Shown: one piece after another, positions 470-13,226 of the stretch | Layout of the letters: each line of letters begins with the position of its first letter | Numbering within the stretch: position 1 is the stretch's first letter | Assembly: GCF_030547685.1 (NCBI RefSeq) | Contig: NZ_JAUOQM010000040.1 | Location: forward strand, 1 to 42,640 | Direction: 5' to 3' | Length of the DNA stretch: 42,640 bases | Source of the DNA: Gilvimarinus sp. 2_MG-2023 | GTDB lineage: Bacteria; Pseudomonadota; Gammaproteobacteria; Pseudomonadales; Cellvibrionaceae | Position numbers and translations under genes: made by a program | Notes under the pieces: model-generated | Seen by the model: only the letters and a program-made list of their open reading frames with translations | What the model was told of the DNA's origin: nothing | The model's database searches: none

Positions 470-600
470 GAAACAGAGACAAGATTATTTTTTAGATCTA
501 CGATAATTGCAGCCCTTGCCCATTGTATCCAGCTGAACGAATGTTGTTTCAGTGGCTGAGAACTGTGCCTGCATTTTCTGCATGCGCGCTATTCTTGGCG
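470..600. repeat. Decayed copy of repeat element B
   Basis: The stretch starting GATTATTTTTTAGATC (485-500) and continuing through GTATCCAG and GAACGA matches 4914-4970 over about 60 bases. Beyond that, similarity fades (GTTTCAGTGGCTGAG against the GTGGTTGAGCGC of the right copy). The stems seen in the two good copies are not kept here, so this is likely an old, decaying copy. Confidence 0.5.
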
Positions 601-882
601 CTTAGAGTAGCTTGGCCTGTGAGACTTTCCGGCCGATCAAATGGAAGGGTGCCTTCCTAGGCTAATGATATCGTTTCAGGCTCCACTACCCTTATCAAAA
701 AATCCGGGACACCCACAAACCTGCCATTAATAAAATGCTGGTTTCAAGCTAAGCGCTAAAAGAAAAAAGAGGAAGATTTATTTATAATGTGAGGTTAGAC
801 TTTAATTTCTAAATAGGTAGCAAGGTCTTCGCTCGACTGTGGATCCTGGCTGTCGATCCCGAGACAGTATGGCTTTCTAACT

Positions 883-1122: not shown

Positions 1123-2805
1123 TTATCGCCAAAAAATATTCCAGGTGGCTGTCGAATATTCATAGACTATTTCCTCTTCTGGAGTTCCATCGGCGTCAGT
1201 ATCGATTTGCCTTAAAATTGTCGATAGATTTTCATTGCGAGAGTAGGTTTGAATATAATCAACAATGTTATCAGAATCCGAATCTCGTTCCGATTTTGTT
1301 AAATATCCATAAGAATCGTAGCTATACCAATAATGCTGGATGTTTAACCCATCACCATTGTTATCAACATCTTGCGTGATACGATTATTGTTGCCGTCAT
1401 AGGTGTTAACGATACGATAATCTACAGCCCCATCATTTTCATTATCTGTTTCGTCTAATAGTAAATTCCCATTAGCATCATAGCTTCGATATCGCGTATA
1501 TTCTGCGGTACCATCGGCATCGTCATCTCTTTCTATGGAGGTCCAATTTTTATTTTCATCCCACGTATAAGCAAGCGTCCAATATACTTCGCCCTCTGGG
1601 TCAATCCTTCTTTCTTCTAATATTTTATTATCATTGTCATCATATGTATAAGTCACCTGGCTAGTGACATCCCCACCGATGCTGAGTCTTGATTGCAAAA
1701 GTATTCTATTACCGCGATCGCTGTACTCATAAGTATGATAATAATTCAGAATTCCATCATTATCGGTATCCGCCTCTAAGGACGTTAGGTTGTCTAATGC
1801 ATCGTAATTGTTACGATAAACAGAATCAATAATACCGTCAGCATTATCATCTTCTTCACGAACAATCAGGTAACCACTGGCATTGTAGGTATAGAAGGTT
1901 ATTTCGTCTATTATACCATCGCCATTGGTTTCAACTTCATATCTAATTCGTTTGCCAAATTCGTTATAGGATATTATTGTTTTGGAGTCTTCAGTACCAT
2001 TGTTATCATTATCATGTACGTAGACCGTCGTATTATCGTCAGAATTGTAGGTTCTTATCTCCACACTGTCGGCGTCACCATCAATATCTGTATAACTCTT
2101 AAGATTGCTTATAATGTATATTTCAGGTGTTAAATTTAATGCCGAATACAAACTTTCTATTGCAATGCCTTGATGGATAATTCTTTTTACTCCACCCCAA
2201 ATTCCAGAGGATTTTCCTTCGGCTATCAATACTCGGAATTCATAAACGCCAGGAAAATCATAGGATGACTGATGAAAATCAATAGATTTACCAGCGGCTA
2301 TTGTATGGAGTTCTTCTGGTATTTGAATGCCATTACTTAGATCGTTGTCGGCGTCTAATGTTTGTAAGAATACTGTCATATTAACAACAACATCGAAATT
2401 GCCAGCATTTCCTAATTCAGACAGGGTTGCATTAATATCTGGCGCTAAAGTTGGTGCCGTTATTCCCGCAAGATCAAACGGAGATATTGTTTCGGCAACA
2501 CCAGCACTGCCAATTTCTATATCACCTACATAAAACGCTATTGTTTCTCCATCAACATACGTGAATTCACTGTCACTGTTGGTGTATCCTGATTGAGTTG
2601 CCGTTTCAAATCGTAAATTTTCAACTGAGCCACCAGTAAAGATTCCAGTCTTAACCGTTGGTGTAGATGAATTACTGCCACCACTACCTGTGCTTTGGCT
2701 ACTGCTTGAATTACCACTAGAGCTGCTACCTCCTCCGCCACACGCAGTAAGACTCAAAAACAACCAGGCCACGACCAGTGGCATTCCCACTTTTAACTTA
2801 AACAT
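1123..2805 (-). CDS. Lipoprotein with aspartate-rich YD-type repeats
   Basis: A 560-residue secreted lipoprotein. The lipobox is LTAC (Cys22), followed by a Gly/Ser-rich linker to about residue 50. A globular part of about 180 residues has no fold I recognise. From about residue 235 to the end, around a dozen units of roughly 28 residues combine an acidic D.D.DG loop (EF-hand or thrombospondin-3-like, probably calcium-binding) with a Y.YD..GN strand like RHS/YD repeats. GGAGAAAGGA upstream is the ribosome site. Surface location and calcium binding are inferences. It stands alone, with a 725-base AT-rich spacer upstream and repeats downstream. Its AT-rich codon use differs from the TetR/RidA pair. 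Confidence 0.75.
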   Translation of the reverse strand: MFKLKVGMPLVVAWLFLSLTACGGGGSSSSGNSSSSQSTGSGGSNSSTPTVKTGIFTGGSVENLRFETATQSGYTNSDSEFTYVDGETIAFYVGDIEIGSAGVAETISPFDLAGITAPTLAPDINATLSELGNAGNFDVVVNMTVFLQTLDADNDLSNGIQIPEELHTIAAGKSIDFHQSSYDFPGVYEFRVLIAEGKSSGIWGGVKRIIHQGIAIESLYSALNLTPEIYIISNLKSYTDIDGDADSVEIRTYNSDDNTTVYVHDNDNNGTEDSKTIISYNEFGKRIRYEVETNGDGIIDEITFYTYNASGYLIVREEDDNADGIIDSVYRNNYDALDNLTSLEADTDNDGILNYYHTYEYSDRGNRILLQSRLSIGGDVTSQVTYTYDDNDNKILEERRIDPEGEVYWTLAYTWDENKNWTSIERDDDADGTAEYTRYRSYDANGNLLLDETDNENDGAVDYRIVNTYDGNNNRITQDVDNNGDGLNIQHYWYSYDSYGYLTKSERDSDSDNIVDYIQTYSRNENLSTILRQIDTDADGTPEEEIVYEYSTATWNIFWR

Positions 2806-4095: not shown

Positions 4096-4677
4096 ATGAA
4101 TAAACGTGATGAAAGCGCCCGCCAAAACAGAGCCAAGTTAACTGCCGCAGCCCGCCAGGCATTTGCCCAGCATGGCTACGCGGCAGCGTCTATGGATGAT
4201 CTAACCGCCGCGGCGGGCCTTACCCGGGGGGCGCTGTACCACAGCTTTGGCAGCAAACGCGGCTTGTTCGCGGCGGTGGTAGAACAGCTGGATTCGGAAA
4301 TGGCCCAATACGCGCAATCGGTGGGCAATAGCGCCTCGGGCGATTGGGAAGGCTTGCTGGCCGAGGGAACCGCCTACATCGAAAAAGCGCTAGACCCCGA
4401 AGTGCAGCGCATTGTGCTACTGGATGGCCCCGCTGTACTAGGCGACCCCTCGCAATGGCCCAGCCAGAGCAGTTGCTTGCAGGCCACTATCTCTATTGTG
4501 GAAAAGCTGATTCAGGAACAAACCTTAAAGCCCGTAGACATTGAGGCGGCCGCCAGGCTGCTAAACGGCACGGCGCTAAATGCAGCGCTCTGGGTCGCCG
4601 CCAGCGAATCCCCCAAAGACGTACTGCCAAAAGCCATAGAAGCCTTCCGCGCCCTAGCGACAGGCTTATTAAAATAA
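4096..4677 (+). CDS. TetR/AcrR-family transcriptional repressor
   Basis: A 193-residue regulator when started at the ATG at 4096. An in-frame ATG at 4066 overlaps the second operator and is less likely. The N-terminal helix-turn-helix is classic TetR (MDDLTAAAGLTRGALYHSFG, then the SKRGLF helix). The C-terminal half is an effector-binding domain with RIVLLDGPAVLGDPSQW, common in this family. The ligand is unknown. A divergent RidA-family gene and two operators point to local control of an imine/enamine-type detoxification gene. The high-GC codon use matches the bulk genome rather than the flanking AT-rich repeats. Confidence 0.9.
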   Translation: MNKRDESARQNRAKLTAAARQAFAQHGYAAASMDDLTAAAGLTRGALYHSFGSKRGLFAAVVEQLDSEMAQYAQSVGNSASGDWEGLLAEGTAYIEKALDPEVQRIVLLDGPAVLGDPSQWPSQSSCLQATISIVEKLIQEQTLKPVDIEAAARLLNGTALNAALWVAASESPKDVLPKAIEAFRALATGLLK

Positions 4678-4720
4678 CCGGTAGGTTAGTGCTTTAGTGC
4701 AGCGCTGTTATCTCAGACAC

Positions 4721-4756
4721 AGCCGGTTCGGTAATCCCCCGCCCCTCCGACCGGCT
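4721..4756. terminator. Hairpin after TetR gene, possible terminator
   Basis: AGCCGGT (4721-4727) and ACCGGCT (4750-4756) form a 7-base stem around a 22-base loop, 44 bases after the stop. No T-tract follows, so factor-independent termination is uncertain. Confidence 0.35.
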
Positions 4757-4899
4757 TAATCATCTATTATGAGTATCAACCGGAGGCTAGTGGTTTCAGG
4801 AAAGGTGTTTATTGCGCCATAAGTTTCATCTGACCCTATTTATTTAGGGGGCAGAAAGATATCGGGGTCTTACATTTCACACTGAAAATTTATTTTAAG

Positions 4900-4913
4900 A
4901 ATTCCGGGGACAG
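4900..4913 (+). repeat. REP-like motif (left copy)
   Basis: AATTCCGGGGACAG is identical to 10092-10105 and in the same orientation. It sits just before the left copy of element B. The motif resembles repeats often seen close to REP-associated (RAYT) transposases, from memory. Confidence 0.55.
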
Positions 4914-4949
4914 ATTATTTTTTAGATGTATGAGGATGGCACCCCTTCC

Positions 4950-5205
4950 CCATCGTATCCAGTCGAACGTAGGCCTATTTTTCGGGTAATCGCGCATGGA
5001 CGCGCGATTAAGGAAAAGCGCGAGGACAGCGATTTTTTCCGACCCGCAAAATAAGCCGTAGTGAGGGAACCCGTAAGGGCTGAGATACGCGGGCGTGTTT
5101 GACGTGAAGGGATTCACTAATGCCGTGGGCGCAGGACGCGCAGGAACGGCCTGATACCTTCTTTTCACGTCAAAAGAAGGTATTCGCCCCGCCCGGCGAT
5201 AGAGG
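4950..5205. repeat. Structured repeat element B, left copy
   Basis: This matches 10790-11008. From CATCGTATCCAG through GTAGGCCTATTT, GTAGTGAGGG, CCCGTAAGGGCTGAGATACG and the perfect 12-base hairpin ATACCTTCTTTT-cacgtc-AAAAGAAGGTAT (5154-5183), the sequence is nearly the same. Between these blocks the bases differ, but they fold into the same three-way junction, with paired changes (see findings). The left copy carries about 50 extra bases (5101-5150) that the right one lacks. Leftward reading gives a 108-residue open frame, which I treat as incidental. Confidence 0.8.
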
Positions 5206-5332
5206 GCGATTGTCAAAAAAGAAATATAAAATTTTCGCTTTAATGCAGAGCTCGCTTAGTGTTACAAAACCCCACCGCCGAAAGGCGAACCCCAAGCGTC
5301 AAAGACGCCACCCCCGCACCGACAGGTGCAAA

Positions 5333-5415
5333 TCAAACCGGATTCCCAATCCCCCCATCTACAATCGGATTCATCGCCGTCATGCGATCCATCAAGGTCG
5401 CCGTCCCCAATCCAT
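5333..5415 (-). pseudogene. Fragment of DUF1501 gene, last 27 codons
   Basis: Read leftward, this encodes GLGTATLMDRMTAMNPIVDG then GIGNPV and a stop. It differs at only a few residues from the C-terminus of the intact DUF1501 protein at 11131-12720. Homology stops abruptly upstream of the GLG motif. The bases after its stop (5272-5332, with CGCC-GAAA-GGCG and GCGTC-AAA-GACGC hairpins) also match those after the intact gene (11074-11130). It is therefore a duplicated 3' end with its original downstream flank, not a gene. Confidence 0.85.
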
Positions 5416-5492
5416 CATGGCGCAATAAGTACCAACCGACACCGCTTATTCTCAACCAGTTGCCAAACCCGCCCCGCCATGGCACAGTAAGC

Positions 5493-5613
5493 CACATAGC
5501 GCGTAGGGTTATGGTTGGTCACCCAACCTGCCAGAAGGCAGGCACCACAACCCCAGATTTAGCCAGTTAGGAAGGTGAAATAATAAAGGGCAAAGCCCAG
5601 ATGTTACGCAGCA
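5493..5613. repeat. Repeat element C, copy 2
   Basis: This is the 121-base partner of 883-1003. The same double hairpin is present. The one change in the outer arm (ACCACAACCC for ACCATAACCC) breaks an A-T pair on the plus strand, but gives a G-U wobble in an RNA made from the minus strand. It lies between the DUF1501 fragment and the CBASS operon. Confidence 0.75.
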
Positions 5614-5721
5614 GCTCTTCCCCTACCTTTCCAGCTAGCTAATACAACGCAAAATATTAATGAGCGAACCATCGTGTTTGTGGTTTTTGCATTGTGTGGA
5701 TTAAAAAACCTAACCCTTATG

Positions 5722-5765
5722 GTACGGGTTGGGCGTAATGAATTCACAATTCAAGACCTGACCCC
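5722..5765 (+). repeat. REP-like motif before the CBASS operon
   Basis: TACGGGTTGGGCGTAATGAA followed by AATTCAAGACCTGACCCC resembles a repeat I know from neighbourhoods of REP-associated transposases. No transposase gene is present here. The end of this motif is duplicated in the adjacent 17-base tandem repeat. Confidence 0.5.
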
Positions 5766-5793
5766 GATGGTTCTTTGACCCCGATGGTTCTTA
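5760..5793 (+). repeat. 17-base tandem duplication upstream of CD-NTase
   Basis: GACCCCGATGGTTCTTT (5760-5776) is followed directly by GACCCCGATGGTTCTTA (5777-5793), with one mismatch. It ends nine bases before the ribosome site of the first CBASS gene, so it lies in the leader or promoter of the operon. Confidence 0.85.
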
Positions 5794-5813
5794 ACTCGGA
5801 AAGGGAGATATCA

Positions 5814-6851
5814 ATGGGACTGCAGGCACAATTTATCCAGTTCAATAATAAGATTTATCTAAAAAAAACTGATTCTCGTCTTGAAGAAGTCAGAGGCAAG
5901 CGAGATCGAATCAATTCGGTGGTGAAGGCGAGATTCAAAGAAAATGGCTGGGGAGATGTCTCAATTTTTTTACAGGGCTCATATGCTACTGACCTTTCTA
6001 TCGTTCCTTTAGATGGTGATTACGATATTGATGTGGCCGTCGTCATCCCGTATGACACGGCACCTGATTCCCCGATAACTCTTAAAAAAGAGATGTTATC
6101 GATACTTCAGGATCGAGGTCTGTCTGACGCAACTATTAAGCGCCCCTGTGTGACAGCTCAATATTTGTCAGACGGGAAACCAAAATTTCATATTGATTAT
6201 CCCATTTACCGTTGCACTGGAAATCATTATGAGTTGGCATGGGGTAAGCCGACTTCTGCTGAGAAGGACAAAAAGTGGTCTAGCGGAGACCCTAGAGGGC
6301 TGGTTGATTGGACCGATTATTCGACTTTAGATGTTGACGAAAAAAGGCAATATAAACGGATGGTGCGTTTCTTAAAGCGTTGGCGGGATCTTCGCTATGT
6401 GTCAACGGAGGTGAAACCCTATTCGGTGGGCCTCACTATCTTAATTAGACAGAATTTCGTAGATTCTTTTTCAGATGATGGAGAGGCGGATGATCTTAGT
6501 GCCCTCATTAGCACAATCGACAGGATTATGGGGTGCAGTGCATTTGTATCTTTGGGTGACAATAAATATGACCTTGTAGTTTCCTTGCCTACTTCTCCCT
6601 ATGTTGATGTGTTTAAGGATCACGGGAACGGTATGGGGACTAAATTGTACAACCGGCTTGGTCAATTGAAAAATCGACTGCTGGCGGCTCAATCTAAATC
6701 TACAGTTGTCGCTGCCAGTAAAATTCTTTCTGAAGGCAATGTGTTTGGTAGTGATTTTCCTGTTCCTGATGGCGGGCATGACGGTAATAGTTCGAGTAAC
6801 CGTTCGGCGACAAAGACTGCTGGTGCAGTAGGATCGCCACAGGGTGCGTGA
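5814..6851 (+). CDS. CBASS CD-NTase (cyclic oligonucleotide synthase)
   Basis: A 345-residue enzyme predicted to make a cyclic di- or trinucleotide signal after phage infection. Its nucleotidyltransferase core has the GS motif at residues 55-56 (QGSYATDLS), the metal-binding Asp71 and Asp73 (DYDIDVAVV) and a third Asp128 (KFHIDYPIY). The ATG at 5814 is preferred, because AGGGAG lies six to seven bases upstream; a TTG at 5775 would add 13 residues encoded by the tandem repeat. The C-terminus is a flexible Gly/Ser/Asn tail ending in GSPQGA. Such a tail fits the substrate that Cap2 joins to target molecules in type II CBASS. The next gene starts eight bases before its stop. The SAVED partner suggests a trinucleotide product and a clade C or D enzyme, which is an inference. 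Confidence 0.93.
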   Translation: MGLQAQFIQFNNKIYLKKTDSRLEEVRGKRDRINSVVKARFKENGWGDVSIFLQGSYATDLSIVPLDGDYDIDVAVVIPYDTAPDSPITLKKEMLSILQDRGLSDATIKRPCVTAQYLSDGKPKFHIDYPIYRCTGNHYELAWGKPTSAEKDKKWSSGDPRGLVDWTDYSTLDVDEKRQYKRMVRFLKRWRDLRYVSTEVKPYSVGLTILIRQNFVDSFSDDGEADDLSALISTIDRIMGCSAFVSLGDNKYDLVVSLPTSPYVDVFKDHGNGMGTKLYNRLGQLKNRLLAAQSKSTVVAASKILSEGNVFGSDFPVPDGGHDGNSSSNRSATKTAGAVGSPQGA

Positions 6852-8619
6852 CTTATTTCGTACAGAATCTATTGCGAATTACTTGCGAAGTAAGGGCTTT
6901 GAGACGCTGGATGTCACCGAAGAGCATATAACTATTCAGTACAATATAGACGATGTAAAGGTTGGAATAAAAGGTGTTTTCAGTACACGCTTTCCATTTG
7001 AGCTACCAAGCTTTTATTTGATAAACCGCTTGGGTTATGGGCAACTGGCCCATGTCAGTTGGACCAGAAATCCAGAACTAGCAGAGGATGATGTTGGATC
7101 TATTTGTGAAGGAGTGACAATCTCTCGAAGTGTTAATTACGAGTTTCCAGAATTGGTATTTGAGTACGCGCTTGAGTCTGCCATTCGTACATTAACCCGT
7201 GTGTTATCCTCTGACGATATTAATCGTGCTGAAGTCAAATCTGAGTTCGCGGGGCATTGGCGGTTCCATTGCTCCACAAATACTGTTCGCCATATTGCAT
7301 CGATGGGCGCTGGAGAAAAACCTCTCAAGTTATCGGTTTATAAATTACGATCAAACGTCTTTAGCTATACCACTAGCGATCCTATTGTCAACGAAGGTTA
7401 CGGCTTGCAGCCTGGCAAGAAAGATAAGCCTGATCACAAAGGATTGTACATTCCGATAAAGACACCGATATTACCCCCTGCACCACAGCAATGCATTCTG
7501 GCTTGGTGGCATGATACGGTATTGCCTGTCCTGTCAGATGATGTTCGATTGTTTCTGGCTGATGTGTGCAAAAAGCATACAAGCAAATATCAGATTTTTA
7601 GCGTTATATTGAGTGTCACTATTGGCAAAGGCCGTCTGGCGTGGGTAGGTTTTAACTTAACCTATAAGTCAAGGATGTCTTATAACCGTAAAAACCAACC
7701 TCCACTGTTCTCTGGTGCATCTCTTTCTGGTTGGTCGGTCAAGCCTTTCCCCGTCCAAGTGCACAACCAGGACTATTTACTACCTCGTGGTGGTGTTTCA
7801 GGTGAGCTTTCAACCGAAAAAATACTAGTGGTGGGTTGTGGATCTTTAGGGGGGGAGATTGCAAGGCAGCTTGGTTATTCCGGTGTTGGCCAGTTGGATC
7901 TTGTAGATTTTGATTCATTCGAGGCGGACAATATATATCGGCACGTACTCCCATCGACCTACATTGGGATAGACAAGTGTTTTGCGTTAAAAAGACATCT
8001 GGAAAACCAGTTTCCGTATTTAGTTGTAGAGACGCTAAATCAATTCAAAGATCTGAGGGAGATTTCGAGAGTCGAGAAATTAGAGACTTTTTTGAGTCAA
8101 TATGATGGGGTAATTGTTGCTACTGGTGACGTGACGCAGGAACGATATTTCAATGAAGTGGTTAGTCAACTGAAAAATAAGCCTTGGGTAATATATGCTT
8201 GGCTGGAGGGGTATGGCGTAGGTGGACACTCGGTATTCGTTAATCCTGAAGGTAGAGGGTGCCTTGCTTGTTTGTTTAGGGATTCTGAATCCGGTGAACA
8301 GTCACTTTCCAATATCCAAAACTTTCTGTCGATAAATCAAGACTTTGCAGTCGATCTCTCTGGATGTGGAACACACTTTCTCCCCTATGGATATACTGAT
8401 GTTATAGAGACAGCCACGCTTACCACCAGAATTGTAGAAGGTATATACAATGGTTCGATTGGCACTTCGGTCAGAGTTTCTTGGAAAGGAAATGGGCGGG
8501 AGGCCAAGGAGGCTGGATTGAAAATGACGGGTCGCTGGAAAAGGTTTAAACAAGATAGGTATCCCATTCCTCTGGTATGGAGCGAGTGTGTAACTTGTGG
8601 GAGCTCAGATGATCTATGA
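6844..8619 (+). CDS. cap2: Cap2: E2-E1 ubiquitin-transfer-like fusion of type II CBASS
   Basis: A 591-residue cytoplasmic enzyme with a GTG start inside the end of the CD-NTase gene. Residues 1-150 are an E2-like domain with likely catalytic Cys88 (GSICEG). From about residue 320 there is an E1/ThiF adenylation domain: VVGCGSLGGEIARQL nucleotide loop (329-343), then LVDFDSFEADNIYRH. Cys508 in SGCGTHFLPYG is my candidate E1 cysteine. Two CxxC pairs (Cys473/476 and Cys582/585) probably hold zinc. In known systems Cap2 attaches the CD-NTase C-terminus to other molecules and so primes signal synthesis. All expected landmarks are present, so the gene looks intact. Confidence 0.93.
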   Translation: MRDLFRTESIANYLRSKGFETLDVTEEHITIQYNIDDVKVGIKGVFSTRFPFELPSFYLINRLGYGQLAHVSWTRNPELAEDDVGSICEGVTISRSVNYEFPELVFEYALESAIRTLTRVLSSDDINRAEVKSEFAGHWRFHCSTNTVRHIASMGAGEKPLKLSVYKLRSNVFSYTTSDPIVNEGYGLQPGKKDKPDHKGLYIPIKTPILPPAPQQCILAWWHDTVLPVLSDDVRLFLADVCKKHTSKYQIFSVILSVTIGKGRLAWVGFNLTYKSRMSYNRKNQPPLFSGASLSGWSVKPFPVQVHNQDYLLPRGGVSGELSTEKILVVGCGSLGGEIARQLGYSGVGQLDLVDFDSFEADNIYRHVLPSTYIGIDKCFALKRHLENQFPYLVVETLNQFKDLREISRVEKLETFLSQYDGVIVATGDVTQERYFNEVVSQLKNKPWVIYAWLEGYGVGGHSVFVNPEGRGCLACLFRDSESGEQSLSNIQNFLSINQDFAVDLSGCGTHFLPYGYTDVIETATLTTRIVEGIYNGSIGTSVRVSWKGNGREAKEAGLKMTGRWKRFKQDRYPIPLVWSECVTCGSSDDL

Positions 8620-9088
8620 GTCTCCACGTTCTGTAATTACTATTTCCGCTGACGTTTGTCGAGACTTTCTGAAGTATCGGCAGGGATCGGTTGGAAAAAC
8701 TGAAGCGTGTGGAGTTCTTATTGGTGAGGGGGATATAGATAAAGGCATATATAATCTTAATAAAATCACTACACCGATGTTGAGGGATATTCGTAGGCGA
8801 ACATATTTCAAAATAAGGGATAAAGGGCACCAAAAAACTGTAGATAATGAATGGAAACGTTCTTCTGGTGCTCGGTTCTACTTGGGTTTTTGGCATACTC
8901 ATCCTGAGTTATTTCCCTGCCCTTCACGGTTAGATATAGAGAGTTGGAAGGAAAACTTTAATCTTAATAGAAGTAATGTTTCGTCGCTCTTTTACCCAAT
9001 CGTTGGGATGAAAGAAATTGCGATTTGGGAGTGTGGGGATTTTGGAGTGACTAAAATGAACTGTGTGAGTGATTTGAAAGATGGATAA
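8609..9088 (+). CDS. cap3: Cap3: JAMM/JAB deconjugating metalloprotease
   Basis: A 159-residue zinc protease that in type II CBASS cuts the CD-NTase away from its conjugates, reversing Cap2. The JAMM signature is complete: Glu32 (TEACGVLIG), His96 and His98 (FWHTHPE), Ser106 and Asp109 (HxHx7SxxD). The ATG at 8609, with GGGAG six bases upstream, is chosen over the GTG at 8597. The gene starts inside the end of cap2 and overlaps the next gene by eight bases, so the four genes form one translationally coupled operon. Confidence 0.93.
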   Translation: MIYESPRSVITISADVCRDFLKYRQGSVGKTEACGVLIGEGDIDKGIYNLNKITTPMLRDIRRRTYFKIRDKGHQKTVDNEWKRSSGARFYLGFWHTHPELFPCPSRLDIESWKENFNLNRSNVSSLFYPIVGMKEIAIWECGDFGVTKMNCVSDLKDG

Positions 9089-10124
9089 TCTCCTTACATT
9101 TTTTGAGCGTTGGATACAGCTAAAATCAACTAATCAATGTATCAAAGCCGGGCAAATATTGTGTTTTTTAGGTTTTGGTGGGAGCGGAGCTTTGGCTATA
9201 GTTTCTGCTGTGAAAGGGGTTCCCCTGGCTGTGGAGTGGTCGGCGGGTAATAGCGTAGTTTTGTCGTTAGTGGCTGGTGTTATAGGTGTTATTTTACTGG
9301 TAATTGGCGCTTTTATTCCGCCGCAGTCAGCTAAGTCTACCCTTGTCACCCTCATGGGGATTCCTGGAGTTTCTACCAATGTACCAGACAAGGCAGTCGG
9401 TAAGCCATATAGCCTTTATAACCCTAGGCACTATAACTTTTCATTGAATAAGCTTGACCCAGTCGCGATGGTTGGTAAATTGAATAACTATTGTCGTCAC
9501 CTTGTCGATGACCAGATTATCAACGATTCGAAAAATGGAAAAGTCTTTTTTGCTGGTTTAGCCAGAGTTCCTTGTTTGTTTGCAATAGGAACGATGTTCA
9601 GGAGTTCGGCTGTTGATGTGGAGCCTCTTGAGCGATTCAGAAATCCTGATAAATGGGCAAGGCTAAAATTATTTAAGGGGGCTGAGAATAAATATGCATG
9701 TGATGGGAGCCCCCAGGAATTGGTGTCTAGTTGTGGTCAAATTGGTATCGCTATTTCGTTGACCGATGAAATCTCTACTGGTCAGTTGCCTGATGATATC
9801 CGAGATCATTGCATGTCTATTAAATTGACGCCAATGTGCAAGAGAGAAGCTATATCTACTCTTCATAATTTGCATGATTTTTCAAAAAAATTCCAAAAAT
9901 TATTGGATGAATGTAGTAGGGTGGCAAATACCATTCATTTGTTTGTTTGTGCCCAATCTTCTGCGGTTTTTGAAATGGGTCGGGTATATCAAGAGGGTAT
10001 GCATTGCAGAGTATTGATTCACAATTTTACTCCCGGTGAGGGTTATACCTGGGCAATTGAAATTGATAAGGGAAGCCTCAGATACATTGGAAATTCCGGG
10101 GACAGTTTACTTAATTCAAGCTAG
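9081..10124 (+). CDS. Transmembrane SAVED effector of CBASS (Cap14-like)
   Basis: A 347-residue inner-membrane effector. Two hydrophobic helices (about 22-44 and 57-79) are followed by a SAVED ligand-binding domain. Typical SAVED strands are seen at about residues 150-170 (KVFFAGLARVPCLFAIGTMF) and 290-335 (IHLFVCAQSSAVFEMGRVYQ onward). In this class, binding of the cyclic nucleotide assembles the SAVED domains and the helices disrupt the inner membrane, killing the infected cell. The last ten residues (NSGDSLLNSS) and the stop are encoded by a REP-like repeat starting at 10092. The tail of this protein has therefore probably been replaced or extended. Confidence 0.88.
   Translation: MDNLLTFFERWIQLKSTNQCIKAGQILCFLGFGGSGALAIVSAVKGVPLAVEWSAGNSVVLSLVAGVIGVILLVIGAFIPPQSAKSTLVTLMGIPGVSTNVPDKAVGKPYSLYNPRHYNFSLNKLDPVAMVGKLNNYCRHLVDDQIINDSKNGKVFFAGLARVPCLFAIGTMFRSSAVDVEPLERFRNPDKWARLKLFKGAENKYACDGSPQELVSSCGQIGIAISLTDEISTGQLPDDIRDHCMSIKLTPMCKREAISTLHNLHDFSKKFQKLLDECSRVANTIHLFVCAQSSAVFEMGRVYQEGMHCRVLIHNFTPGEGYTWAIEIDKGSLRYIGNSGDSLLNSS
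10092..10105 (+). repeat. REP-like motif at the 3' end of the SAVED gene
   Basis: AATTCCGGGGACAG is identical to 4900-4913. It continues as TTTACTTAATT, which also looks like a known repeat, and lies inside the reading frame of the SAVED effector, where it provides its last codons and stop. Confidence 0.6.
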
Positions 10125-10276
10125 GTTTTTTGCGCTACGAAGCACTGCTCTCAACTCCCCTTAGATCAAGCCGAGCGGAAGTCTATTTTAGGGGGTAAGC
10201 AAACAGTAAATATTGAGACCAGGCCTTACAATTTACACAACCGAATAGCCTCGAATGTAAGTTTTTAGGTTTCCTT

Positions 10277-10789: not shown

Positions 10790-11008
10790 CTCAGTCCCCA
10801 TCGTATCCAGCCGAACGTAGGCCTATTTGAGTGGTTGAGCGCACATGGACGTGCGCGAAAGGAAAAGCCTCGGGGACACGAGATCTTTTCCGACCGCTCA
10901 AATAGACCGTAGTGAGGGCACCCGTAAGGGCTGAGATACGCGGGCGTGTTTCTTGATACCTTCTTTTCACGTCAAAAGAAGGTATTCGCCCCGCCCGGCG
11001 ACAGAGGG
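10790..11008. repeat. Structured repeat element B, right copy
   Basis: This is the partner of 4950-5205 in the same orientation. It has the same three-way-junction fold (outer arms GGCCTATTTGAGTGGT and ACCGCTCAAATAGACC, a hairpin with loop ATGGAC, a hairpin with GGAAAA/TTTTCC arms) and the 12-base hairpin at 10956-10985. It lies just before the 3' end of the intact DUF1501 gene. Confidence 0.8.
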
Positions 11009-11130
11009 CAAAACCAAAAAAGTACTAAACCTTAAAAGGCTCGCTAAACACCCAGTTTAAAATTCAAAACCCTACCGCCGAAAGGCGAATCCCAAGCGTC
11101 AAAGACGCCAAGCCGCCGCAGGCAAAAAAC

Positions 11131-12720
11131 CTAAACCGGATTCCCAATCCCCCCATCCACAATCGGATTCATCGCCGTCAACCGATCCATCAAAGTGGAC
11201 GTCCCCAACCCATGCTGGGGAAACAGCGTGGGGAATAAATGCTGCTCGTTATGCAGCGCCATATAATTCAGCACCAAAGTTTCCACCAGCAAATTCACAT
11301 TGTTGGCCGCCGGGCTGGAGGCGGTTTCTACGTCGCCGCTTTGGCGCATGTAGCCCAGTTGTTGGTGGATGGCCTGCTCTTCCAGCGAGCCGCCAACGAT
11401 ACCGGGCCGGCCGTTGGGGTTGTACACCAAAAAATAGCTGGCGGCGGTTTGCTGATTGTCGCCGGTCCATACGCCCTTGCCGCGCCCCTCTGCGGATTCG
11501 TCCAACATACCGTTGGAGAACACCGAGCCGTCGGAGAATACATAAATCATAACCGGCACGCCGATGCGGGCGGCGTACTCTAAACAGGCGCCGATGCAGC
11601 GCCCGGCGCGCAGGTCGCGAATTTCGCCGGTGGCGCGGTCGCCGGTGTGGTAGTCGTAGCCGCCCATGGTAATGGTGCCCGCTCCGGCGTAGCCGTTCAT
11701 CACCAGTTTCATGACCGAGGCGGCCTTGCGAAATTCGCCGTCGGAGTCGAACTCGTCAAAGGTAAAAATACCGGCGGGGCCGACAATGTCCGGGTCGGCC
11801 ACAGGGTCAATGGCGGACGGGTCGCCGAAGCGGTCGGCCAGGTCCGCACTTTTGACATAGCCGCAGCGCATTAAGTCTTTTAACATCGTATCGCGCACGC
11901 TGCCGGTATTGACCGCACCCAGCTTGGCGTTGCTGATACGGGCCATGGATTCCATCACCGCGACGGTGTCGGATTGCTCGAGCAGGCCGACTAAATCACC
12001 CACGTCCACCAGGCCAGACACATCGCTGGGGCGGTCCACTTTGGTGGGGCGTGCCTCGGGGTTAATCAGTGCTTCCGGGGCCATTGAGTTGCCACCTGAG
12101 TCGCTGGAGCGCGAGCCAATAAGTGACAGCAGCGAGCCACCGGCCCCGGCGCGATTAATACCGTACATGGGGTTGTGGGGATTGTTACCGGTGTCGTTTT
12201 CGGAGCGAGCGGGAATGACTGCACCGTTAATATTGGCGGCGCGGTCGGCGCCTATGCGCTCTAAAATGCCGCGCAGCATTTGGCTGTCGGAGTGAAAGGC
12301 GAGGCCTAAATCCTGATTAATAAAGTTGCCCTGGCCGCTCTGGGGCGTCATATCGCCGGGCAGGCCCTGCTTGCTGTAACCGGCCGTGGAGAGAAAATCC
12401 ATTTGCCCGCCGGCACCGCCCACCAGTACGTTGGAGCCGGCAATATTGGCGCCGCCGGCCAAATCGAAACAGATAAACGGAATTTTGCCCGCGCCCTGCG
12501 TGCTGATACCGCAGGCGTCGCGCATGGCGGCCAAATCGGACGACAGCGCCGCCTCGGCCTGACGCGGGTTGGCAAACAAGCTAAACGCGGAGCCACCCAC
12601 CACTGTGGCGGCGCCGGTGTAAAAACCCTGGCAGATCATATCGCGCCGGGTAATGGGGCGGCCGTGGTCGTTGAGCTTTAGCGGCGCGTCCGGATGCAGG
12701 GGGTGTTTGGTTTTACGCAT
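11131..12720 (-). CDS. DUF1501 family exported protein
   Basis: A 529-residue exported protein of the DUF1501 family, which is related to alkaline-phosphatase/sulfatase folds but has no settled function. The N-terminus has a twin-arginine-like motif (TRRDMI) followed by a hydrophobic stretch and a cut near RQAEA, suggesting Tat export in folded form. AGGAG lies nine bases before the ATG. DUF1501 genes are commonly paired with genes for CxxCH-containing proteins of DUF1549/DUF1592 type. Here the two upstream genes on the same strand encode CxxCH proteins, but a 506-base repeat-filled gap separates them. Its 3' end is duplicated as a fragment at 5333-5415. Confidence 0.9.
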   Translation of the reverse strand: MRKTKHPLHPDAPLKLNDHGRPITRRDMICQGFYTGAATVVGGSAFSLFANPRQAEAALSSDLAAMRDACGISTQGAGKIPFICFDLAGGANIAGSNVLVGGAGGQMDFLSTAGYSKQGLPGDMTPQSGQGNFINQDLGLAFHSDSQMLRGILERIGADRAANINGAVIPARSENDTGNNPHNPMYGINRAGAGGSLLSLIGSRSSDSGGNSMAPEALINPEARPTKVDRPSDVSGLVDVGDLVGLLEQSDTVAVMESMARISNAKLGAVNTGSVRDTMLKDLMRCGYVKSADLADRFGDPSAIDPVADPDIVGPAGIFTFDEFDSDGEFRKAASVMKLVMNGYAGAGTITMGGYDYHTGDRATGEIRDLRAGRCIGACLEYAARIGVPVMIYVFSDGSVFSNGMLDESAEGRGKGVWTGDNQQTAASYFLVYNPNGRPGIVGGSLEEQAIHQQLGYMRQSGDVETASSPAANNVNLLVETLVLNYMALHNEQHLFPTLFPQHGLGTSTLMDRLTAMNPIVDGGIGNPV

Positions 12721-13226
12721 AGCGTGGCTCCTGAGCCTGCCTTTGTTTATATATGCCCGTGTCGCCGAGCGTTGCGAGTTACTTACTATCCCTGATTATT
12801 TACGCCTTAATTGGCGTGTTACTTTTTACGCAAAAAGTAACTGCGTCGCTCCTGCGCACAGCCCAGGCTGCCTTCTCTGCCTTCGGCATTCACCTTGTCC
12901 GTGCGCTCGCGACATTAGTGAATCCCTTCACGTCAAAACTGTGCCCAACAACTGGCCCCTTCGGGGGTGTCCTCCCTCCGGCAAATTTTCGAGGGCCGCA
13001 TAGACGCGCCGTGCCCCAGGGCACCTTCTCTGCTGCTTCACAGCATTCACCTTGTCCGTGGCCTGGCTATGCTTGCGCAAACGCAGCCCAGGCTGCCTTC
13101 TCTGCCTTTGGCATTCACCTTGTCCCTGTTAGCTTACCTACTAAAATAAGCCTCCGCTCGGCTCAGTTGTAAACGGGCGATAAACCCAAGCAGTTCCGCG
13201 TTCTCCACGTCGAAGTCAAAACATTT
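12721..13226. repeat. Repeat-filled spacer inside the DUF1501 cluster
   Basis: This holds a 40-base unit beginning GCCCAGGCTGCCTTCTCTGC at 12861-12900 and again at 13086-13125 (39/40 identical). A diverged version lies between them (13015-13057). ATTAGTGAATCCCTTCACGT (12914-12933) is the inverse of a piece of the left element B (about 5101-5121). No gene is supported. The spacer separates two genes that would otherwise be adjacent in an operon. Confidence 0.75.

Follow-up and report, generated by a model that had tools for sequence, protein, structure and literature searches.

What kind of molecule does a repeated, folded sequence represent when two of its copies flank a defence operon, and what might it be conserved for? 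This question is raised by a 42,640-nucleotide stretch of DNA from Gilvimarinus sp. 2_MG-2023 (contig NZ_JAUOQM010000040.1, assembly GCF_030547685.1), studied herein at its full length and referred to as the window; the genome that carries it comprises 3.76 Mb. A preliminary description, made from the window alone, proposed a new structured element in two copies, selected for its fold, and left open whether it acts as RNA or DNA. The comparative analysis presented here indicates that the folded element is real and is conserved as an RNA shape, as part of a repeat dispersed in marine Gilvimarinus genomes.

Architecture of the element in the window

The outer stem around two hairpins that had been described for both copies is present in the sequence of each, with its arms, loops and changes (Table 1). 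The paired U-A to G-C and C-G to G-C swaps in this stem, here termed P2, are real, and hairpin H1 has the loop AUGGAC in both copies on a stem that changes between them. P2 contains mispairs in both copies, C·A plus U·C in copy 1 and one C·A in copy 2, so the two copies alone are not decisive. The two outermost H1 pairs of copy 1 have no counterpart in copy 2. The copies share 70% identity and are not fully independent, because both lie inside a longer direct repeat that includes the 3′ end of a neighbouring gene.

The MFE folds of both regions include the junction. For copy 1 (positions 4944-5215) z is −3.17, with 1 of 200 shuffles reaching that stability, and for copy 2 (10790-11008) z is −5.77, with 0 of 200. 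In the copy 1 fold, the 5′ part of the optional module M2 pairs instead with the P4 region, so that P4 and the first M2 hairpin are absent from it. P4 is present in the predicted fold of copy 2, which has no M2.

The three-way junction exists as described, but the description was incomplete, as further stems belong to the dispersed repeat of which the junction is the inner portion. This whole unit spans about 210-260 nt. Its outermost stem P0 encloses a third hairpin, H3, and the long stem P2, which opens into the three-way junction with H1 and H2, and the hairpins P4 and P5 follow 3′ of P0.

Table 1. Positions of the element's copies, their substructures and associated gene features in the window
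Feature	Position	Strand	Basis or remark
Copy 1, full element from P0 to P5, B-type core	4949-5208	+	
Copy 1 P0, 5′ strand	4949-4962	+	partner 5080-5093; 93.3% of cells paired, 3 of 12 pairs with two-sided change
Copy 1 GA-step/2-bp helix below P2, 5′ side	4962-4971	+	partner 5058-5067; read from sequence
Copy 1 P2, 5′ arm (outer arm of the preliminary description)	4972-4987	+	covariation, sequence
Copy 1 H1, loop AUGGAC	4988-5009	+	covariation, loop count, sequence
Copy 1 H2, loop with GGA	5012-5040	+	covariation, loop count, sequence
Copy 1 P2, 3′ arm	5042-5057	+	covariation, sequence
Copy 1 H3, without GGA	5070-5079	+	covariation, loop count, sequence
Copy 1 P0, 3′ strand	5080-5093	+	covariation, sequence
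Copy 1 M2, optional module, two GGA hairpins	5099-5150	+	absent from copy 2
Copy 1 P4 hairpin	5154-5183	+	P4 in 82 of 95 copies; Watson-Crick 921, G·U 16, A·C 2, other 47
Copy 1 P5, 3′ terminal hairpin	5190-5208	+	read from sequence
Copy 2, B-type, without M2	10797-11009	+	
Copy 2 P2 with H1 (10839-10856) and H2 (10861-10891)	10820-10908	+	arms 10820-10835 and 10893-10908; covariation, sequence
Copy 3, A-type, three loop extensions	12748-13165	-	
A-type 5′ fragment, stops at H1 loop	10155-10206	+	
Weak degenerate copy	475-635	+	nhmmer 28.6 bits; missed by models R1 and R2
Gene for a 529-aa protein beside copy 2	11131-12720	-	orthologues in 8 of 8 genomes
Fragment beside copy 1, last 29 residues of the 529-aa protein	5336-5422	-	83% identity

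Conservation of the fold across copies

Fifty copies without loop extensions were compared from eight Gilvimarinus genomes. They belong to two main core types, A (35 rows), in which H2 resembles CAUCG...CGAUG, and B (15 rows), in which H2 is of the form GGAAAA...UUUUCC and to which copies 1 and 2 belong. These further copies strengthen the pairing: 96.7% of 1399 pair cells are standard in the A-type set and 95.8% of 757 in the B-type set, with 26 of 40 and 17 of 51 pairs, respectively, changed on both sides. No shuffle out of 500 matched either set in pairing percentage, two-sided counts or covariation score, and the covariation first proposed from two copies is thereby borne out in both types. 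Sliding the partner by 1-3 columns reduces pairing to 33-47% across both sets (35-47% in the B set), while further pair types in the B set do not rise above shuffles (316 of 500). A covariance model built from A-type rows only, none of them from the window, recovers copy 2 at 88.9 bits, copy 1 at 79.5 bits and copy 3, at 12953-13163 on the minus strand, at 72.0 bits. The claim that selection acts on the fold and not on a protein agrees with the reading frames, none of which is open in more than 19 of the 50 copies.

Stem P0, which the preliminary description lacked, covaries in the B-type rows (93.3% paired). A-type P0 exhibits several sub-types; its inner pairs hold poorly when one register is forced on all rows, and 27 of 35 rows are good when the sub-types are given their own registers. 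With one row's register applied to set A2, the inner segment P0b shows 46 Watson-Crick, 4 G·U, 13 A·C and 42 other cells, and P0c shows 59, 1, 18 and 2. Since this register fits only one sub-type, the A2 structure excludes P0b and P0c. In sub-type registers, class IIb (16 rows) shows 98 Watson-Crick, 3 G·U, 0 A·C and 11 other cells, and class I (11 rows) 32 Watson-Crick and 1 A·C; 8 of the 35 A-type rows were left unassigned. The 2-bp step between the GA steps below P2 alternates among GC, AU and GU in A-type rows and is 94.3% paired, with 7 of 35 rows unpaired at one pair.

Set A2 holds 35 of 44 A-type rows. Excluded were four mis-anchored rows, a copy whose H2 differs (two rows) and three rows in which the H3 region is longer. 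The 15-row B set omits two rows with a longer H3 region and includes two others. H3 was judged from A1 and A2, because its columns are misaligned in A3 (76.2% paired).

The folding molecule and its strand

A DNA hairpin should tolerate G·T and A·C mismatches about equally, whereas an RNA hairpin admits G·U solely on the strand that folds. The element exhibits a marked asymmetry between the two. A-type rows contain 99 G·U against 5 A·C, or 64 against 5 once a single invariant column contributing 35 G·U is removed, and B-type rows contain 34 against 8; the rows share ancestry, and small probabilities derived from these counts serve as a guide only. When each mismatch type is counted once per pair column, 38 G·U face 13 A·C. 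The ratio of G·U to A·C is 19.8 (A-type) and 4.25 (B-type) in register, and 0.37-2.53 when partners are slid by 1-6 columns. The P4 hairpin adds 16 G·U against 2 A·C alongside 47 other mismatches, and 28 matches outside the genus show 61 against 10, with 908 Watson-Crick and 88 other cells, in an alignment fitted to the model. Inner P0, when forced into one register on the 35 A-type rows, shows 31 A·C against 5 G·U, which counts against an RNA reading; the sub-type registers (27 rows) yield 1 A·C against 3 G·U.

Predicted folding adds that the sense strand (165 bases) is more stable than the antisense strand in 45 of 50 rows. Together, the mismatch asymmetry and the sense-strand stability point to plus-strand RNA as the folding molecule, and thus favour one side of the RNA-or-DNA alternative that the preliminary description had left open. 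A promoter scan of positions 4650-5800 returned two sites, both on the minus strand and without excess over shuffles.

Relationship to TwoAYGGAY

TwoAYGGAY (RF01731) was introduced in 2010 as a probable RNA whose function was unknown (PMC2864571). The element shares with it the outer stem, the three-way junction and two hairpins with GGA loops. Tandem-GA steps are described for the TwoAYGGAY stem (PMC4333381), and GA steps are seen in sequence to flank the covarying 2-bp step in the element's stem. Unlike what the family name implies, AYGGAY does not occur in both loops: H1 has AUGGAC, while H2, by the pairing used for the loop count, has AGGAC and GGGGACA in the window copies, whose H2 stem of the GGAAAA...UUUUCC type is a further departure from the family. 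H3, M2, P4, P5 and the loop extensions all lie outside the TwoAYGGAY match.

Against RF01731, copy 1 reaches 29.3 bits where the cut-off is 43, and nothing in the window matches at the gathering threshold, so that the window copies formally fall outside the family. Sister copies do exceed the cut-off, in 60 of the 93 matches listed and in all eight genomes. Scoring of up to seven candidates per genome across the order gives RF01731 matches in 56 of 390 genomes, 33 of which have one above the cut-off. The core is therefore a divergent branch of TwoAYGGAY and not a wholly new RNA; the novelty first claimed for it does not hold, since copies in the same genome pass that family's cut-off. In the window and 23 further loci, the only matches to pass their family's cut-off are to TwoAYGGAY, tRNA and rRNA. 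A TPP riboswitch, suggested by a CTGAGA string, was rejected, as no such family matches in the window.

In one genus, TwoAYGGAY is the core of a larger dispersed repeat that is selected as a one-strand RNA. The TwoAYGGAY literature, in the excerpts available, mentions neither dispersal nor strand evidence.

GGA loops and a candidate role in CsrA/RsmA binding

Sites for CsrA/RsmA present GGA in paired hairpin loops, and the sequestering small RNAs CsrB and RsmX/Y/Z carry several such loops in pairs. The element resembles these RNAs. GGA occurs in the apical loop of H1 in all 50 copies and of H2 in all 50, both stable hairpins, and in the H3 loop of only one. In predicted folds, 106 of 157 sense-strand hairpin loops contain GGA, compared with 0 of 145 on the antisense strand, and shuffled sequences average 0.34 GGA hairpin loops each. 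Among the M2 loops that could be parsed, GGA is found in 39 of 41 for the first hairpin and in 31 of 33 for the second. A csrA gene is found in the genome.

These features lead us to lean, with reserve, towards a dispersed structured RNA module that presents paired GGA hairpins to CsrA/RsmA when it is transcribed. Transcription may start from the element's own promoter or reach it by read-through. The GGA loops of H1 and H2 would then be displayed together and bound by a single CsrA/RsmA dimer, with M2, where present, offering a second pair of GGA hairpins. Scattered copies could in this way turn host transcripts into CsrA targets, or could titrate CsrA. In contrast to CsrB and RsmX/Y/Z, the putative CsrA binder occurs as tens of dispersed copies with a rigid junction. 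CsrA sites have been predicted in TwoAYGGAY itself, where GGA motifs are said to occur in pairs because CsrA is a homodimer (PMC4333381). The GGA loops can have causes other than CsrA, and the patchy copy number in relatives, detailed below, fits a selfish repeat equally well as a regulator.

In a Pseudomonas putida pull-down, RNA from regions beside ISPpu8 was bound by RsmA, RsmE and RsmI, and one such region is termed a long palindromic region (PMC7937890). These regions may or may not be the same element; a plasmid search with a copy pair from a genome outside the genus gave one short hit. Apart from this lead, the literature, as far as the retrieved excerpts extend, does not tie CsrA sites to dispersed repeats.

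Each genome offers many natural variants of the element, and its sequence occupies an orthologous site in eight species. A formerly loose prediction of CsrA binding thus becomes directly testable with many natural mutants. If CsrA does bind, a mobile repeat would be a source of sites for a global regulator.

In another genus, tandem M2-like units about 52 bases apart carry GGA hairpins (L035, G015:C4:226547-226786); judged by its sequence, this array may be likened to a multi-site CsrA decoy.

Dispersal and possible modes of spread

A blastn search with copy 1 finds 22 places in its own genome and matches, many of them pieces, in 15 of 38 genomes including its own. An nhmmer search of the fetched stretches yields 95 merged copies. 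With 150 candidates scored per genome, model R1 reports 197 matches in the eight genomes, distributed as 27, 22, 13, 22, 29, 12, 41 and 31. In the wider family, with 35 candidates scored per genome and stricter filters, R1 matches 30 of 100 genomes (the eight included) and 11 of 32 genera. The distribution there is patchy: G425 has 14 matches and its five listed congeners none; G435 has 12, with 8 and 1 in two congeners and 0 in nine; and G417 has 28, with no congener among those listed. Judged by eye, comparable 3′ hairpins follow copies outside the genus such as L134-L137, L140-L143 and L150-L152, and are not clearly present in L138 and L144-L146.

Several arrangements of copies were observed. 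Three near-identical A-type cores lie in tandem, 408 and 315 bases apart, at L147:765-1613 in the window's own genome, which is a recent tandem amplification. Outside the genus, L134-L140 contain head-to-head copy pairs with 102-251 bases between core matches. Truncated copies retain the 5′ part only and stop at the H1 GGA loop (L003, about 1660-1898, minus strand; window 10155-10206).

Dispersal at 12-41 matches per genome, patchy bursts in relatives, the existence of truncated, tandem and head-to-head copies and the presence of at least one Y1 transposase in 7 of 8 genomes would all suit a mobile hairpin of the REP or MITE sort, which folds as DNA during replication and is moved by a transposase such as Y1/RAYT, its RNA being irrelevant. 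We consider this unlikely. The G·U over A·C asymmetry and the better folding of the sense strand argue against it, as do GGA hairpin loops confined to one strand. REP/RAYT copies accompany a Y1 (RAYT) transposase in the genome, whereas G007 holds 22 copies and 0 Y1 matches, and G006 has three transposases and 12 matches. As transposase number does not track copy number, RAYT transposition was rejected as the sole driver. A transposase near divergent copies was also sought: of ten proteins at three loci, none matches a transposase family and six match nothing. The element does resemble REP/REPIN sequences and the R178 and R200 repeats of Pseudomonas fluorescens in being a dispersed intergenic hairpin repeat with a bias towards gene ends. 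R200 has a similar size (320 bp; PMC2718517). Unlike these repeats, the element exhibits an RNA-level G·U signature, GGA loops and no link to Y1 transposase number.

The bias towards gene ends suggests a second alternative, in which the element is a 3′-end device, either a transcription barrier or an mRNA-end protector, acting between genes and without a dedicated protein partner. In 57 of 77 copies the gene 3′ of the element is convergent, and grouping by downstream gene gives 35 clusters against 15, with 2 mixed; these 77 remain from 93 spans (95 minus two merged) after 16 without a gene on one side are set aside, and the genes are long open frames from crude calling. A tail-repeat-tail bias is described for the P. 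fluorescens repeats (PMC2718517). Such a device would, however, require neither invariant GGA loops nor an elaborate junction, and the convergent gene would transcribe the antisense, less stable strand. Moreover, the only terminator-like site in positions 4650-5800 lies outside copy 1 on the minus strand (5289-5271), and shuffles give as many. This alternative likewise appears improbable. The same orientation counts against the CsrA/RsmA reading: for most copies (57 of 77) the facing gene lies on the opposite strand with its 3′ end towards the element, and read-through from it would yield antisense RNA.

The element can also carry a short extension module. In the eight genomes this module is counted 73 times, its reversed pattern 0 times, and of 44 distinct cases in the stretches examined 43 have it directly behind GGA; within the window it is present three times, all in copy 3. 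The element raises the question of how genomes come to be populated by a repeat whose RNA must fold. The position of the extension module right behind GGA suggests insertion of small hairpin modules into the GGA loops of other hairpins, and a selfish, SINE-like bacterial RNA repeat might grow in this manner, needing to fold in order to spread and using CsrA-docking hairpins as a handle on its host; we regard this as a speculative and rather doubtful reading.

M2 also occurs alone. In L050, L051 and L052 (G002), one or two solitary copies lie beside sequence resembling the 3′ end of 5S rRNA. A location inside 5S rRNA was rejected, as the 5S gene is intact in these rRNA operons and M2 lies downstream.

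Genomic sites and neighbouring genes

A type II CBASS operon, with CD-NTase, E1-E2, JAB and SAVED/2TM effector genes, occupies positions 5775-10124, all on the plus strand. Copies 1 and 2 flank it as direct repeats, and the fragment of the 529-aa gene beside copy 1 places the operon between direct repeats of the element together with the gene end. This arrangement, like the junction of copy 1 with part of the gene that adjoins copy 2, would suit a site at which the CBASS operon recombines or attaches. Such a role is nevertheless very improbable, given 197 matches in eight genomes, many of them in other gene contexts in the stretches examined, and only 70% identity between the copies. A CBASS-specific element was rejected on the number of copies elsewhere, and the arrangement probably reflects one capture event at a variable site and not the element's function.

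The site itself is shared across the genus. The 529-aa gene has a full-length orthologue in all eight genomes, and element sequence lies just past its 3′ end on the opposite strand in each of them, G006 retaining the 3′ modules only. Between this gene and the preceding one, another copy is present in five genomes and absent from three, which looks like insertion or loss at one place. The core at the 3′ site differs among species, being either A-type or B-type, and cores therefore seem to have been exchanged in place.
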